From NCBI RefSeq assembly GCF_002812485.1, contig NZ_CP025003.1, positions 4,526,001 through 4,590,000 on the forward strand: DNA of 64,000 bases, read 5' to 3'. Positions 10,888 through 26,468 of the stretch are shown one piece after another. A program made the position numbers and the translations under genes. The first letter of the stretch is position 1. Each line of letters begins with the position of its first letter. The notes under the pieces are model-generated. The model was not told where the DNA came from. It was given only the letters and a program-made list of their open reading frames with translations, and searched no databases. Origin of the DNA: Dickeya fangzhongdai (lineage in GTDB: Bacteria > Pseudomonadota > Gammaproteobacteria > Enterobacterales > Enterobacteriaceae).

Positions 10888-12807
10888 ATGATTGTTTTCT
10901 CCTCCTTGCAAATTCGACGCGGTACCCGGGTACTGCTGGACAACGCCACCGCTACCGTCAACCCCGGCCAAAAAGTCGGCCTGGTCGGTAAAAACGGCTG
11001 TGGCAAATCAACCCTGTTGTCGTTGCTGAAAGGGGAAATCAGCGCCGACGGCGGCAGCGTAACCTTTCCGCAAAACTGGGCGCTGGCGTGGGTCAATCAG
11101 GAAACCCCGGCGCTGGCGCGATCGGCGATTGATTACGTGATCGACGGCGACCGCGAGTTCCGCCAGTTGGAAGCCGACCTGGACGCGGCGAATGCCCGCA
11201 ACGACGGCAACGCCATCGCCACCCTGCACGGCAAGCTGGACGCCGTTCAGGCCTGGTCGATTCAGGCGCGCGCCGCCAGCCTGCTCAACGGGCTCGGCTT
11301 TCAGCAGGAACAGTTGCAACAGCCCGTCAGCGACTTCTCCGGCGGCTGGCGTATGCGCCTGAATCTGGCGCAGGCGCTGATTTGCCGTTCCGATTTACTG
11401 CTACTCGACGAGCCGACCAACCACTTGGATCTGGACGCGGTGATCTGGCTGGAGAAGTGGCTGAAGAACTATCCCGGCACGCTGGTGCTGATCTCCCACG
11501 ATCGGGATTTTCTCGACCCGATCGCCAACCGGATTCTGCATATCGAGCAGGAAACCCTGTTCGAATACACCGGTAACTACACCTCGTTCGAGCAGCAGCG
11601 CGCCACCCGCCTGTCTCAACAGCAGGCGATGTACCAGCATCAGCAGGAACGGGTCGCCCACCTGCAGCACTACATCGACCGTTTTCGCGCCAAAGCCAGC
11701 AAGGCCAAGCAGGCGCAAAGCCGTATCAAGATGCTGGAACGCATGGAGCTTATCGCCCCGGCCCACGTCGACAACCCATTCCGCTTCAGCTTCCGGGCGC
11801 CGGAAGCGTTGCCCAACCCGCTGTTGCGGATGGAAAAAGTCAGCGCGGGCTACGGCGACCGTCTGATTCTGGATTCCATCAAACTCAATCTGGTGCCCGG
11901 TTCGCGCATCGGGTTGCTCGGCCACAACGGCGCCGGGAAATCGACGCTCATCAAGCTACTGGCGGGCGAGCTTCAGCCGTTCAGCGGCGACATCGGCCTG
12001 GCCAAAGGCGTGCGTCTTGGCTATTTCGCCCAGCATCAGCTGGAGTTCCTGCGTCCCGACGAGTCGCCGTTGCAGCACCTTGTCCGGCTGGCGGAACGGG
12101 AAACCGAGCAGCAGTTGCGCGACTACCTCGGCGGTTTTGATTTCCGGGGCGACAAGGTGACCGAGCCTACCGAGCGCTTTTCCGGCGGCGAGAAAGCACG
12201 GCTGGTGCTGGCGCTGATCGTCTGGCAGCGCCCCAACCTGCTGCTGCTCGACGAACCGACCAACCACCTGGATCTCGACATGCGTCAGGCGTTGACCGAG
12301 GCGTTGATCGACTTCGAAGGCGCGCTGGTCGTGGTGTCTCATGATCGTCACCTGATCCGATCCACCACCGACGATCTCTATCTGGTGCATGACCGCAAGG
12401 TCGAACCGTTTGACGGCGATCTGGAGGATTACCAACAATGGCTGCTGGATGCGCAGAAGCAGGATAACGCAACGGAATCCGCCTCCAGAGACAACGCCGC
12501 CAACAGCGCTCAGTCGAGGAAGGATCAGAAACGGCGCGACGCCGAGTTACGCACGCTGACCCAACCGCTGCGTAAGCAGATTACCCAACTGGAACAACAG
12601 ATGGAGAAACTGCAAACCGCGCTGACCGCAGTGGAAGAACGCCTGGCCGACAGCGCGCTTTATGACGTCAGCCGTAAAAGCGAACTGACCGAGTGCCTGC
12701 AAAAGCAAAGCGCGACGAAAGCGGATCTGGAAAACGCCGAAATGGCCTGGCTGGATGCGCAGGAGCAACTGGAGCAGTTGCTGCGCGACGCGGAAAGCCA
12801 GGGGTAA
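10888..12807 (+). CDS. yheS: ABC-F ATPase YheS
   Basis: A 639-aa soluble ABC-F protein, a ribosome-associated ATPase family. Two nucleotide-binding domains are present. The first has Walker A GKNGCGKST, signature FSGGWRMRL and Walker B LLLLDEPTNHLDLDAV. The second has GHNGAGKST, FSGGEKARLVLA and LLLLDEPTNHLDLDM. A charged linker lies between them and a C-terminal coiled coil (about 540-635) ends the protein. I start at ATG 10888 (MIVFSSLQIRRG), as in E. coli YheS, rather than 18 bp upstream. No membrane segments are present. Confidence 0.95.
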   Translation: MIVFSSLQIRRGTRVLLDNATATVNPGQKVGLVGKNGCGKSTLLSLLKGEISADGGSVTFPQNWALAWVNQETPALARSAIDYVIDGDREFRQLEADLDAANARNDGNAIATLHGKLDAVQAWSIQARAASLLNGLGFQQEQLQQPVSDFSGGWRMRLNLAQALICRSDLLLLDEPTNHLDLDAVIWLEKWLKNYPGTLVLISHDRDFLDPIANRILHIEQETLFEYTGNYTSFEQQRATRLSQQQAMYQHQQERVAHLQHYIDRFRAKASKAKQAQSRIKMLERMELIAPAHVDNPFRFSFRAPEALPNPLLRMEKVSAGYGDRLILDSIKLNLVPGSRIGLLGHNGAGKSTLIKLLAGELQPFSGDIGLAKGVRLGYFAQHQLEFLRPDESPLQHLVRLAERETEQQLRDYLGGFDFRGDKVTEPTERFSGGEKARLVLALIVWQRPNLLLLDEPTNHLDLDMRQALTEALIDFEGALVVVSHDRHLIRSTTDDLYLVHDRKVEPFDGDLEDYQQWLLDAQKQDNATESASRDNAANSAQSRKDQKRRDAELRTLTQPLRKQITQLEQQMEKLQTALTAVEERLADSALYDVSRKSELTECLQKQSATKADLENAEMAWLDAQEQLEQLLRDAESQG

Positions 12808-21198: not shown

Positions 21199-21530
21199 TC
21201 AGATTTTATTCGCATCACGTAGAACCAGCATCTGATATAAATCAGCAAACAAAAATGCGATATATTTATACTCATCAGAATTAAAATCACAGGATGCGGG
21301 ATCATGTGACTGCAGCACGAGGTTCTCCTCGGTGACATCAAAGAATTTTGCAAATTTATACAACGTTTGTCTGGAGATCGGCTTGCCTAACTCCGCTCTT
21401 TTTATTGTAGAGATAGAGATATAACACTTTGATTCAAGGCTTTGTTCTGACAGTTCCTCCTGACTTAATTTTTTTTTAACCTGAGGTCTTTGATCACTGC
21501 TGTGTTCACCATAAATCCGTTGTTAGACAT
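21199..21530 (-). pseudogene. Small XRE-like HTH regulator split by an A9 tract
   Basis: From ATG 21530 (ribosome site GAGGGG) the frame reads MSNNGFMVNTAVIKDLRLKK and then stops within a run of nine A residues. If the run is read as ten, the frame continues for a total of 110 residues: an HTH of the XRE/Cro type (LSQEELSEQSLES, ISISTIKRAELGKPIS, TLYKFAKFFDVTEENL) and a C-terminal part ending LRDANKI before TGA at 21199. The coding content is clear on both sides of the run. It is therefore a recent frameshift, a gene expressed through slippage on the A9 tract, or a homopolymer sequencing error. It lies on the same strand as, and 250 bp downstream of, the precursor-like peptide gene. Confidence 0.75.
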
Positions 21531-21743: not shown

Positions 21744-21775
21744 AATGGTGCATGACCATTCGGTCATGCACCATT
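21744..21775 (-). terminator. 14-bp perfect hairpin after the peptide gene
   Basis: aatggtgcatgacc / ggtcatgcaccatt with a 4-nt loop begins 5 bp after the stop codon of the 49-aa peptide. The tract after it on the transcript is AT-rich but not a clean U run, so it may terminate transcription or stabilise the 3' end. Confidence 0.6.
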
Positions 21776-21780
21776 ACTGA

Positions 21781-21930
21781 TTAGCTCAGTACGCCGGACA
21801 GCGCGCCCTGGCCTGCTTTTTTCAGCAGATTCAGCGCCTGGCCCCAGAAGGCCGGGTTAACGCCGGACGCTTTGGCTTCGGCAACACGGTTAGCGCGATT
21901 AACATTCTGTGCTTGGGTTGGAAGTTTCAT
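21781..21930 (-). CDS. 49-aa putative RiPP precursor peptide
   Basis: A short gene with a strong ribosome site (AAGGAG, 7 bp before ATG), downstream of the PatA/PatG-like protease by 107 bp. The peptide starts MKLPTQAQNVNR, which resembles the N-terminus of cyanobactin precursors (PatE has LPQQGQPVIR; pattern L-P-x-Q-x-x-x-V-x-R). The middle is a charged leader-like stretch (ANRVAEAKASGVNPA). The end FWGQALNLLKKAGQGALSG plus VLS is amphipathic and cationic and contains no Cys. The YcaO recognition element LAELSEEAL of patellamide-type leaders is missing. I infer that it is the protease substrate: a bacteriocin or signal peptide trimmed or cyclised without heterocycles. Confidence 0.78.
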   Translation of the reverse strand: MKLPTQAQNVNRANRVAEAKASGVNPAFWGQALNLLKKAGQGALSGVLS

Positions 21931-21965
21931 GGTTATTTCTCCTTGAGTGTATTTGCATTACGTTT

Positions 21966-21979
21966 TGGGGATATCCCCA
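21966..21979. promoter_or_regulatory. 14-bp perfect palindrome before the peptide gene
   Basis: tggggatatcccca is perfectly palindromic and lies 36 bp upstream of the peptide ATG, inside the protease-peptide gap. It could be an operator for a dimeric regulator or an mRNA feature separating the two cistrons. Confidence 0.4.
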
Positions 21980-22037
21980 GGTTAATGCCACCGACTGGCG
22001 GCAAAGCTGAAAAACGGTATGGTTCGGCAGGCCGATA

Positions 22038-24002
22038 TTAATAGGCATGCCAGCTGCGCAGCGTACCGATGGTGACCGGCATGACATCGCTGACGTCAAT
22101 GGTGTAGCGATACAGTTTGCGTGCGGCGGTGAGGCGTTCTTTCGGGTTGAAGAATTCCAGCACCACGTCCCAGCAATCGGATTCCGGACGGCTGACCGGG
22201 CTGCGTTCCGCGCCGATCTTGTTCAGGAATAACCCTTCGCCGAAAGCGTCGTCGAAGATTTCCTTCATCTGATAAGCGTTGGTGGCCGCATAGTTAATGG
22301 CGCGTTCATTCGACTCGTAACCCCGGTTACGCAGTTCGTAATAAATGCGGTTGATGAAGTTGACCAGTTCCTTGGATTTCGGCGTGCCGACGGCGCTTTC
22401 CCCCATCAGCATCTTGGAAATATCCTGGGATTCCCAGTTGAACATGCCGCGTAATACCGGGCTGATGGTGGGGATCACCTGGCCGTTGAACAAACGGGTT
22501 TCGCCGCTGATAATCCCGGCGATGGAAACGCGCTCCACGCCTTTGGTTTCCTGTTCGTACAGGAACTCCACCAAACGGGCATATTCCAGCACCGCGAACT
22601 GAGCATCCGGTTTAATGGCATAAACCGGAATGCCGTCAATTTTCAGCGTCCAGATAAGCGCGTTGGATTGTTCCGCATTATCACCGGTATTCAAGTGCTC
22701 AGCCATTTGCACCGGGTCAAACGGGTAGCCGCTTTTATTTCCCATCACCTGGGTAAAATAATCCAGCCGCGCTTCGGTACCGAAGTCATAGCCGACCTGG
22801 CCGATGACAAAGATCTTTTCCTGATCGCGGACCGTGCGCGCATCCAGCAGCGAGGATTGCGGCATAACCCGCCGGGCCGGAGCATGGACATAGTGATTGG
22901 CTGCCGGATCGCTGATTTTCGATAACGACAGGCCGGCGGCGCGCGACGGGGCGCTCGCTTCCGGGCTCAGGCTGGAAGGCGCCAGCACCTCATCGTCATC
23001 CAGCTCGATATCCTGAATGTCCTGCTGGGCGTCGATAATCGAGGGAACCAGCAGCTCCACGGCGGCGGGTTCAACCATTTTCTCTTCAGTTGACATGGTG
23101 GTGATCCTTTTTGGTGGTTGGTGATAGAATTCCTGTGCTATTTGCTGGAATAATTTCTGAATATTTAATCGGTATACAACAGACTCCCGATTACCTGCCG
23201 TTGACAACACGAGTGGGGTGGCTGTGTTAAACAGCACGTCCCGAATCATTTTTGACGCACGACGATCGTTTGCTACATTCATCGCCCTCATGATTAATGC
23301 CGAGACCGCCGACACCACCGGGGCAGAAAAACTGCTACCAGATACAACAGACAGATCATAATTCGGCGTAGCAACAGGGATTGATACACCAGATGCCAGC
23401 AACATTTTCTTTCTCAGCTTCACCCCGTAATTATTAAATGAGGCGGGCAATCCCTCTTTATCACAAGCGCCGACGGCTAAAACAAAATCCATCGACGCCG
23501 GTAATGACTCACTATTACGGCCTTCATTACCGACAGCGGCGATAACCAATACGCCTTCTTTTTCGCAATCGTCGACAGCTTTGCGTAATTCATCCGTTCC
23601 CTGGCCATTAACCGATAATGACGCACCGCTAACGTTGATAATATTGCACCCCTTTAAACGAGCATCACGAATGGCTTTCGCCAGCGTACGCTCAGAGCAG
23701 CCATGAATATTTCCCCACTCGTCTTCATGAAAGACGGGAATACTCAAAAGTGTTGCCGCCGGTGCGATGCCAACGCCCTTTCCACCGATAATACTGGCCA
23801 CAGCCGTACCGTGTGAGGTGCTTTTATTTTTCTGCACAGAAAGGCATTCAATATTTAAATGATTTAATATCGGATGCTGGCAATCAATGGCGCCATCAAT
23901 AATACCGATTTTTATTCCTTCTCCATTTATCCCCAATTGCTGTAAATCAGAAAGTGGGTTATTCAATAATGCATTATGAGTGTTCGACGGGTGCATCATC
24001 AT
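22038..24002 (-). CDS. PatA/PatG-like S8 subtilisin (RiPP maturation protease)
   Basis: A 654-aa protein with no signal peptide. Residues 25-290 form a subtilisin domain with an intact triad: D36 in GIIDGAID, H64 in STSHGTAVAS, S224 in SGSSFSAPVV, and the oxyanion Asn159 in AAVGNEG. A low-complexity linker (about 305-395) leads to a C-terminal domain opening IFVIGQVGYDFGTEARLDYF at 397, the signature of the conserved domain shared by the cyanobactin enzymes PatA and PatG. The layout S8 plus this domain, without an oxidase domain, is PatA-like. Whether it is a leader protease or a macrocyclase cannot be told from sequence. No YcaO or oxidase gene is nearby. Three ATGs in a row start the frame after AGGAAAGAG. 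Confidence 0.87.
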   Translation of the reverse strand: MMMHPSNTHNALLNNPLSDLQQLGINGEGIKIGIIDGAIDCQHPILNHLNIECLSVQKNKSTSHGTAVASIIGGKGVGIAPAATLLSIPVFHEDEWGNIHGCSERTLAKAIRDARLKGCNIINVSGASLSVNGQGTDELRKAVDDCEKEGVLVIAAVGNEGRNSESLPASMDFVLAVGACDKEGLPASFNNYGVKLRKKMLLASGVSIPVATPNYDLSVVSGSSFSAPVVSAVSALIMRAMNVANDRRASKMIRDVLFNTATPLVLSTAGNRESVVYRLNIQKLFQQIAQEFYHQPPKRITTMSTEEKMVEPAAVELLVPSIIDAQQDIQDIELDDDEVLAPSSLSPEASAPSRAAGLSLSKISDPAANHYVHAPARRVMPQSSLLDARTVRDQEKIFVIGQVGYDFGTEARLDYFTQVMGNKSGYPFDPVQMAEHLNTGDNAEQSNALIWTLKIDGIPVYAIKPDAQFAVLEYARLVEFLYEQETKGVERVSIAGIISGETRLFNGQVIPTISPVLRGMFNWESQDISKMLMGESAVGTPKSKELVNFINRIYYELRNRGYESNERAINYAATNAYQMKEIFDDAFGEGLFLNKIGAERSPVSRPESDCWDVVLEFFNPKERLTAARKLYRYTIDVSDVMPVTIGTLRSWHAY

Positions 24003-24487: not shown

Positions 24488-25114
24488 TCAACCAAAAGCG
24501 CGCTTGGCTTTTGCCAGATAGTCCTTACGGTCTGCCAGACCATTAAGGCCGCCATTAATCCGACGGGTAATGCCATTGACGTCATCCTGATCGGCCAGCG
24601 CGTTCAGTCCGTTCTTTTTCCAGAACCAGATCGCCGCCGCCACCGACACCGACGGGTTCTGGCTGATCAAATCCGGGTTCGTCACCAAATCCTGGCCGAT
24701 GGCGCTCCCGCAGGTGCGGTAATTGTCACGCCCCGTCAGCTGAATCAACCCCCGGCCGCGGTACTTCCAGCCATCTCCCGTTTCCGTCGCGCCGTTGCCC
24801 AGCCGGTTGGCGTAAACAATGTTGGCGATCGACTCCGGTTTGCGCTCACACTGCGCGGCCATCTCATCGGTGGTGAAATAGCGCCCAAACACCGAACGCA
24901 GCCCTTTGGCGCTGTAGTTCAAATTCTCCACCCGCGCACGCAGTTCATTACTTTCATGCGCGATCTGGGCGACAAAGTGCGCAAAACGTAGCGGGGTGTT
25001 GATCTCCGCCGCATTGCACTCCTGCTGCAACGCGGGCTGGAACAGCGCGAGGTCGTCCGCACTGGCCGCCGTCATTACCTTTTTTAATTTTTCCTGGCTG
25101 ATTTCAAGAGTCAT
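24488..25114 (-). CDS. GH19 chitinase/endolysin-like lysozyme
   Basis: A 208-aa protein consisting of a single glycoside hydrolase family 19 domain. FAHFVAQIAHESNELRARVE contains the catalytic Glu of phage-type GH19 enzymes, and YRGRGLIQLTGRDNYRTCG is the substrate-cleft motif. There is no signal peptide, which is typical of phage endolysins released by a holin. No holin or other phage gene is adjacent. It could cleave peptidoglycan or chitin, as a prophage remnant, a bacteriocin-release lysin or a secreted effector. It has its own GC-rich composition between AT-rich gaps. Confidence 0.88.
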   Translation of the reverse strand: MTLEISQEKLKKVMTAASADDLALFQPALQQECNAAEINTPLRFAHFVAQIAHESNELRARVENLNYSAKGLRSVFGRYFTTDEMAAQCERKPESIANIVYANRLGNGATETGDGWKYRGRGLIQLTGRDNYRTCGSAIGQDLVTNPDLISQNPSVSVAAAIWFWKKNGLNALADQDDVNGITRRINGGLNGLADRKDYLAKAKRAFG

Positions 25115-25325: not shown

Positions 25326-26468
25326 TTATTGAAAAGGCGTCTGGTGTTCGACCAGTTCCCACACCAAATAGCAGAGAAACGCACAACCTACCGCTACCAG
25401 CACCATCGTCATGCCTTCCGGCCCCATACGGTCCATCATGAAGCCGATGCCAATCAGACCGGCGATGCCGCCTAGTGAATCCATCATGGTGTAGCTCATG
25501 TTGGCGGACATCTGCTGCTGTGGATGAAAGCGATCGCCGATCAGCGACAGGCCGATGCTGTAAACGCCGCCCATACTACCGCCCCAGATATACAGCAGCA
25601 CCAGCGTAGCGCCGTAATCGGCATACACCGCCAGCGCCAGAAATACCGCGCAAACCACCGAACAGAAAATGCAGAACACCACGATCCACTGCCGGTTTAC
25701 CCAATCCGACAGCAGGCTGACCAGCATCCCGAGCGTGACGCTGCCCAGCATGAACATGGTCATCAGCAACGACGCCCGCTCCTCCGTCAGCCCGTCGCTG
25801 ATGCCATACAGCGTCAGGAAGTTGGGCAGGCCGTAGAAACTGACGCCGCCGACCAGCGCGGACACCAGAATGGCGCGGGCATGGCGGCAGACAAAGCGAA
25901 AACGCACCGCGGACACCGTTCCCGACAGTGGATTGATGTGGGCGATCCACACCAGCAGCAGCGCGCTCAGACTGAGCAGCGCGGTCAGCCAGAACCGCTG
26001 CGACATGGAGACCTGCGTCAGTTGCAGCAATACCGGTCCCAGCGCCACCCCCAGCGACAGCGCGGCGGAAAACAATCCCATGATGATGCCGCGCCGTCGC
26101 AACGGCAGTTGATTCAGCCAGGTCTGCAACAGGATCAACTGCATCCCGGTGCACAGACCGTATCCCAGAATGCTGACCAGCCAGCCGGGGTAAAATTGTT
26201 GCCACGCCATACTGGCGCACAGGCTGGCGCGCAACAGCACCAGCAGCAGCGTCGACCACATCAACCCCATCCGCTGGATGATGCGGCTTAGGCGCTGGTG
26301 GAACAGCAGCACGCCAATGATTTCGCAGGCCATCGCCACGCCGATCCACAGATTATTATGGCCCTGCAGGTTCATCAGCACCGGAATGGTGACGTAATTG
26401 ATGCCGGAAACCAGTTGGATCAGGAAGGTCTGCACGATTAACAGTATCGGTAGTAAACGCGGCATCAT
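25326..26468 (-). CDS. MFS transporter, last gene of the ELIC operon
   Basis: A 380-aa major facilitator with about 12 hydrophobic spans and YcaD-like topology. It shows an N-terminal half with TLLLVLLRASLCASMAWQQF and LPLRRRGIIMGLFSAALSLG, and a C-terminal half with YIWGGSMGGVYSIGLSLIGD. Substrate is unknown. Its ATG overlaps the stop of the upstream sensor gene by 4 bp, so it is translationally coupled to the decarboxylase-ELIC-sensor unit. I infer that it exports or imports the amine or its amino acid precursor. Confidence 0.87.
   Translation of the reverse strand: MMPRLLPILLIVQTFLIQLVSGINYVTIPVLMNLQGHNNLWIGVAMACEIIGVLLFHQRLSRIIQRMGLMWSTLLLVLLRASLCASMAWQQFYPGWLVSILGYGLCTGMQLILLQTWLNQLPLRRRGIIMGLFSAALSLGVALGPVLLQLTQVSMSQRFWLTALLSLSALLLVWIAHINPLSGTVSAVRFRFVCRHARAILVSALVGGVSFYGLPNFLTLYGISDGLTEERASLLMTMFMLGSVTLGMLVSLLSDWVNRQWIVVFCIFCSVVCAVFLALAVYADYGATLVLLYIWGGSMGGVYSIGLSLIGDRFHPQQQMSANMSYTMMDSLGGIAGLIGIGFMMDRMGPEGMTMVLVAVGCAFLCYLVWELVEHQTPFQ

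Follow-up and report, generated by a model that had tools for sequence, protein, structure and literature searches.

Does a protease gene followed by a very small gene on the chromosome of Dickeya fangzhongdai represent a peptide pathway and, if so, is it a cyanobactin pathway? The window analyzed here, by which the whole 64,000-nt stretch is meant (contig NZ_CP025003.1, positions 4,526,001 to 4,590,000), encodes a 654-amino-acid (aa) PatA-type S8 (subtilisin) protease, P0001, and, 107 bp downstream on the same strand, a 49-aa peptide, P0002. A prediction made from the sequence alone (the original prediction) had described the pair as a cyanobactin-like system in which the protease, if the peptide is its substrate, would process or macrocyclize it. 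The two genes are here found to be a real, co-inherited two-gene PatA-only precursor cassette without a nearby YcaO gene. We consider it probable that the protease is a leader protease and the peptide its likely substrate, with a predicted cut after the motif GVNPA that would free a linear, amphipathic peptide of 22 residues.

A co-inherited pair of protease and peptide genes

The protease scores 466.3 bits against TIGR03895, the profile for PatA/PatG-type cyanobactin maturation proteases, and passes its cut-off of 421.05 bits. In an alignment of 31 sequences, the catalytic triad (D36, H64, and S224) is invariant, as are most positions of the stretch GYDFGTEARLDYF. The spacing between the catalytic Asp and His residues (D-H spacing) is 28. 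The 90 A-type rows of the protease set range from 25 to 37, and the 19 G-type rows, a single clade apart from Dickeya, have values of 71 or more. PagA and PatA are the best solved-structure matches of the catalytic half, and a model of the C-terminal domain alone (mean predicted local distance difference test score, pLDDT, of 88) matches the PatG domain (PDB 4uvq); the PatG_D and PatG_C profiles are matched as well. These results bear out the predicted subtilisin with an intact triad and a PatA/PatG C-terminal domain. At another locus (L028:12068-14149), a second PatA-like protein adjoins an intact one; its triad columns read I, N, and E, it has a long branch in the tree, and it is probably a dead protease.

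The coordinates of the peptide gene and its start context (AAGGAG, 8 nt, ATG) agree with the predicted gap and strong ribosome site. P0002 has 24 relatives (67–100% identity, 78–100% coverage) in Dickeya, Vibrio, Endozoicomonas, Photobacterium, Pantoea, and Thalassotalea, and both protease and peptide are present in eight of nine genomes of the genus; because of these relatives and this distribution, the peptide gene is not a chance open reading frame (ORF). Two different peptide copies each occur in Endozoicomonas and on a 31414-base metagenome contig. Several protease hits and peptide hits also agree in the length of their longest contig (91961, 5689, 15209, 6700, and 589933 bases). Among 394 genomes of the order, the protease (E at most 1e-40) was found in three and the peptide in the same three, while the protease occurs in two of 369 genomes of the class, the source genome being included in each count. 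The ninth genome of the genus (G006, locus L011) retains only a protease fragment of 71 residues, interrupted by two stops, and lacks the peptide; the cassette appears to have been lost there as a unit.

An N-terminal tag common to peptides downstream of PatA-type proteases

Residues 4–12 of P0002, PTQAQNVNR, conform to a tag, PxQxx[P/N/S]VxR, which was traced across related loci. A scan of a genome collection with the protease alignment yielded 216 relatives; the best 80, from 79 loci, were retained. With loci added from genome searches, 90 loci encoded a protease above 250 bits (L001 coincides with L003 and was left out), and 87 were counted after the repeats L017, L018, and L096 had been dropped. 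The tag search covered start-codon ORFs of 30–150 aa with P.Q..[PNSATG][VIL].R near the N-terminus, on the protease strand and within 2.5 kb downstream. At least one tagged peptide was found in 59 of the 87 loci, and 26 loci carry two to five; a test for a short peptide gene co-occurring on the protease strand in other genomes had been proposed in the original prediction. Lack of conservation of the peptide gene beside protease homologs had been named beforehand as evidence against the proposed system; in the closest protease clade (alpha/gamma, holding Dickeya), a tagged peptide is kept at 18 of 18 loci, eight of them Dickeya.

Tagged peptides near proteases number 106, or 445 per Mb of strand, versus 30 (11.2 per Mb) elsewhere; inspection by eye assigned 22 of those 30 to cyanobactin precursors, PatB-like proteins, or additional sister peptides. 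The total of 136 compares with a mean of 6.8 in codon-block shuffles of the whole set. A few hits near proteases look false (the second hit of L040, and those of L090 and L092). Tagged peptides occur at 50 of the 68 loci that lack a G-type protease, and at 45 of the 68 at least one of them is not PatB-like. By record name, and with several metagenome bins among them, the tagged peptides at such loci belong to Pseudomonadota, Acidobacteriota, Bacillota, Calditrichota, Planctomycetota, and Cyanobacteriota; those at Actinomycetota loci are PatB-like. In at least six bacterial phyla, genes for small peptides bearing this tag lie downstream of PatA-type proteases.

Two precursors tested from two-protease loci pass the cut-offs of the curated cyanobactin precursor families TIGR04446 and TIGR03678, and both carry the tag; the leader-like N-terminus ascribed to the 49-mer is the tag common to the tested curated precursors, and we would read it as the defining mark of the family. 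Many tagged precursor-like peptides end in helical or Cys-rich C-terminal parts. None of six tagged peptides from loci without a G-type protease exceeded a cut-off when scanned against family profiles. P0002 itself has no NCBIfam match at E up to 1 (the PatB/AcyB/McaB model TIGR04220 included) and no Pfam match over cut-off, and so matches no curated cyanobactin precursor family in these profile searches. The tag is also found on PatB-like proteins (L037, L046, L050, L052, L055, L058, L074, L082-L084, L088, L089, and others), and the tested peptide from L055 both carries it and matches TIGR04220.

Predicted cleavage motif and released peptide

According to a passage in a review (PMC10885120), the PatA cleavage consensus is G(L/V)E(A/P)S, which GVNPA (residues 23–27) fits at three of five positions. 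When a strict pattern, G[VILMA].[PA][SA], was scored in the tails of the tagged peptides, it occurred in 47 of 106 tails, compared with 5.7% of shuffled tails, and started 10–12 residues past the tag in 39 of the 47. Conservation was assessed over 23 sequences, comprising P0002 and 22 relatives (P0131 and P0137, with differing C-terminal ends, were dropped). GVNPA is nearly invariant among them (mean entropy, 0.09 bits), and the following FWG, as well as LKKAG, is invariant; peptides from Yersinia and Enterobacter have FWD instead.

In the proposed mechanism, the protease would cut the 49-residue precursor after A27 (GVNPA|FWG), freeing residues 28–49, FWGQALNLLKKAGQGALSGVLS, as a linear peptide. 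This 22-mer has a charge of +2 and a hydrophobic moment of 0.39, a value reached by 1.0% of shuffles; for the 11 cores tried, the moment was reached by 0–4.2% of shuffles. The 22-mer is most plausibly a membrane-active peptide and may act as an antagonistic one.

A predicted internal start ahead of the C-terminal domain

The linker between the catalytic and C-terminal domains contains a Shine-Dalgarno-like AAGGA 8 nt ahead of the in-frame ATG of Met303. After two rows with too short a linker had been dropped, 80 of 89 A-type linkers showed an in-frame start whose Shine-Dalgarno match was 4 or more, and 69 of 89 one whose match was 5 or more, versus 69/340 and 33/340, respectively, in equally long control windows elsewhere in A-type genes. 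Of the G-type linkers, 4 of 19 have a nested start, versus 1 of 90 control windows taken from the G-type genes. In all 19 alpha/gamma genes, the internal site includes an Arg codon that reads AGG, while AGG makes up ~2–13% of the other Arg codons there; these genes are related, and the corresponding product of 1e-25 should not be taken as a probability. The residues past the internal start are often MSE or VSE/VSD and resemble a true N-terminus.

The internal start is predicted to yield linker and C-terminal domain as a separate 352-aa protein, which may engage the tagged leader or form a complex with the protease. A duller reading is that the site is a ribosome site left from an old gene fusion, and its recurrence across phyla argues against a decaying relic of this kind. 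At one locus (L035:8978-9934), a separate ORF for a PatG-type C-terminal domain lies directly after a full-length protease gene. We hypothesize that the tag might dock to the C-terminal domain; for PatG, the published evidence stands against such docking. In the relevant passages of the 2014 structure paper (PMC4259220), the PatG domain of unknown function (PatG-DUF) does not bind PatE' by nuclear magnetic resonance, and an isothermal titration calorimetry curve is ascribed to aggregation. The protease domains are active without PatG-DUF, and the tests described in these passages concern PatG-DUF rather than the domain of PatA.

Weighing the alternatives

The original prediction had allowed for a minimal cyanobactin system in which the protease cuts the peptide and joins its ends into a head-to-tail bacteriocin. 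This now appears most improbable: with a D-H spacing of 28, the protease lacks the macrocyclase insertion reflected in the spacing of the G-type clade, and a follower motif (such as AYDG after the core) is absent from all 23 sequences, P0002 included. Macrocyclization is unsupported on both grounds. Alternatively, the protease might have another target, and the peptide might inhibit, chaperone, or activate the enzyme in trans, as subtilisin pro-peptides do. The protease has no obvious pro-domain (the S8 match begins at residue 27), conservation of the peptide remains high as far as the C-terminal half, and PatB-like proteins carry the same tag, all of which would suit such a role. It is nonetheless unlikely, given that 26 of 87 loci encode several tagged peptides, many with unlike C-terminal parts, that a motif resembling the PatA cleavage site is found repeatedly at an almost constant distance, and that the tested cyanobactin precursors carry the tag. 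As for a defense module, in which the protease would act against phage or in abortive infection and would activate the peptide, a toxin, once infection occurs, the patchy distribution described above and a weak similarity of the S8 domain to the PADLOC subtilase and IetS profiles speak in its favor, but the PADLOC matches span the generic S8 domain only and none was obtained for the peptide (neighboring genes were not scanned for defense families), making this a quite improbable account.

Several observations also weigh against the leader protease and linear 22-mer that we favor, in addition to the findings on PatG-DUF. No tagged peptide was found in the stretch tested at 28 of 87 loci (some at contig ends), and 17 of the 106 peptides near proteases look PatB-like rather than precursor-like. 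GVNPA departs from the PatA consensus at two positions (N for E and A for S); the strict motif is missing in 59 of 106 tails, and a looser one occurs in 63 of 106, yet in 26% of shuffles too. Four of the 47 strict hits are GALAS (L024, L025, L026, and L071), which lie inside predicted cores and are probably due to chance. The C-terminal part of the peptide is fairly conserved (mean entropy, 0.75 bits), unlike hypervariable cyanobactin cores. Core charge spans −2 to +3 over the 11 cores, so "cationic" is not valid throughout; the cationic amphipathic end that had been proposed fits the Dickeya core. Lastly, no dedicated peptide exporter was found. The MFS transporter gene upstream of the protease has no counterpart in Dickeya L018 or in any further stretch that was compared; in L019 and L021, ABC ATPases sit 6–9 kb away.

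Relation to cyanobactin pathways and sister cassettes

The Dickeya cassette is a PatA-only variant of a known, cyanobactin-type kind and not a true cyanobactin pathway. In common with the PatA, PatE, and PatG pathways of the anacyclamide/piricyclamide type, it has a PatA-type protease with a C-terminal domain of unknown function, a precursor with the PxQxxPVxR tag, and, ahead of the predicted core, a motif partly like the cleavage consensus. It differs in lacking a PatG macrocyclase, a follower sequence, and a nearby YcaO gene, and in having a predicted core of 22 amphipathic residues and a precursor outside the curated families. A second, PatG-type macrocyclase protease was not found in the genome, where the one other S8 match, a 1074-aa frame at 1.12 Mb, covers only residues 186–267 of P0001 at 38% identity.

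The original prediction had noted that YcaO, oxidase, and prenyltransferase genes, normally needed in cyanobactin pathways, are absent from the window. No YcaO gene is present in the window (4.53–4.59 Mb), the two of the genome lying at 1.20 and 2.23 Mb, so that this part of the claim stands; oxidase and prenyltransferase genes were not searched for. The premise that cyanobactin pathways need YcaO was too strict, since a passage in a review states that their clusters "may also encode" it. What survives of the proposed two-gene system with the peptide as substrate is the co-inherited unit with its leader tag and no nearby YcaO; macrocyclization does not.

PatB/AcyB/McaB proteins (TIGR04220) resemble P0002 in being small, in bearing the same N-terminal tag, and in adjoining PatA-type proteases. 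P0002 does not match their model, however, and the strict cleavage-like motif occurs in none of the 17 PatB-like peptides near proteases. Closer parallels are the cassettes of Roseibium, Roseicyclus, and Tateyamaria (L024-L026 and L071), which have sister proteases 40–43% identical to that of Dickeya and tagged peptides with GVDPA, YVDPA, or VAPAF, but, unlike Dickeya, two unlike peptides each. The alphaproteobacterial cassettes L023-L026 have three further conserved upstream genes without a match at positions 12001–36000 of the window; in L024, the upstream genes encode a TPR protein, a PAP2-like protein, and a further S8-like protein of 705 aa.

A passage in PMC6329079, repeated in PMC10319131, reports an antiSMASH "cyanobactin" cluster, tied to no known molecule, in all eight D. 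fangzhongdai strains, and this cluster would correspond to the gene pair described here. Likewise, a "cyanobactin" cluster with no known match (L4174_20290-20360) is reported in part of PMC9456166 for Photobacterium sp. CCB-ST2H9; the peptide relative P0135 from that strain is L4174_020325 and, by its name, lies inside the cluster. The literature searches turned up no account of the peptide, of the tag, or of the nested start.

Neighboring genes

Features of the locus are collected in Table 1. The helix-turn-helix (HTH)-like gene downstream, a possible regulator, is linked to the cassette in Dickeya, Yersinia, and Enterobacter, and Pfam HTH matches of its relatives fall below cut-offs. Its 53-nt first part, A run, and frame change recur in Dickeya (eight loci), Yersinia (two), and Enterobacter (one), the run having nine A in 10 of the 11 loci and eight in L010. 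Third codon positions show the most differences in both parts in every one of 15 pairwise comparisons, and in L005 the second part ends early. The gene is a candidate for transcriptional slippage or programmed frameshifting. Upstream of the protease, the GH19 endolysin-like gene has a close match in Dickeya L018 and none in the other stretches compared.

Table 1. Positions of cassette elements and neighboring genes in the window
Feature	Positions	Strand	Basis or remark
HTH-like gene in two frames meeting at a nine-A run (21469-21477), possible regulator	21199..21530	−	
14-bp perfect hairpin just 3′ of the peptide stop, probable transcript end	21744..21775	−	Simple terminator scan did not list it
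49-aa precursor peptide gene (P0002)	21781..21930	−	ORF and relatives
Predicted released 22-mer, residues 28-49, net charge +2, amphipathic	21784..21849	−	
Predicted cleavage motif GVNPA, residues 23-27	21850..21864	−	
N-terminal tag PTQAQNVNR, residues 4-12	21895..21921	−	
Ribosome site AAGGAG of the peptide gene	21939..21944	−	
PatA-type S8 protease gene, 654 aa, TIGR03895	22038..24002	−	ORF and profile match
Predicted nested product, linker and domain of unknown function, 352 aa, from ATG 23094-23096 (Met303)	22038..23096	−	
PatG_C domain, residues 545-651, second part of domain of unknown function	22050..22370	−	
PatG_D domain, residues 396-496, first part of domain of unknown function	22515..22817	−	
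Internal Shine-Dalgarno-like AAGGA, 8 nt ahead of ATG of Met303	23105..23109	−	
Subtilisin (S8) domain, residues 27-264, triad D36/H64/S224, D-H spacing 28	23211..23924	−	
GH19 endolysin-like gene (PHROG 181)	24488..25114	−	Upstream of protease
MFS transporter gene	25326..26468	−	1.3 kb upstream of protease

Implications

On a wider reading, which we offer tentatively as possible rather than likely, cyanobactins would be one macrocyclizing branch of a broader, multi-phylum group of PatA-only cassettes that combine the PxQxxPVxR leader tag with a PatA gene encoding two proteins, the full protease and, by way of the conserved internal start, the free domain as carrier of tagged leaders. The 2014 structure paper (PMC4259220) assigned the PatG domain no role and asked why it should persist if the protease domains can function without it. 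A conserved internal start that would yield the domain as a separate protein, and a tag retained where a single protease is the sole maturation enzyme seen nearby, provide two direct ways to test the role of this domain. The tag itself is a search handle: in six or more phyla, it picks out precursor-like genes next to PatA-type proteases.
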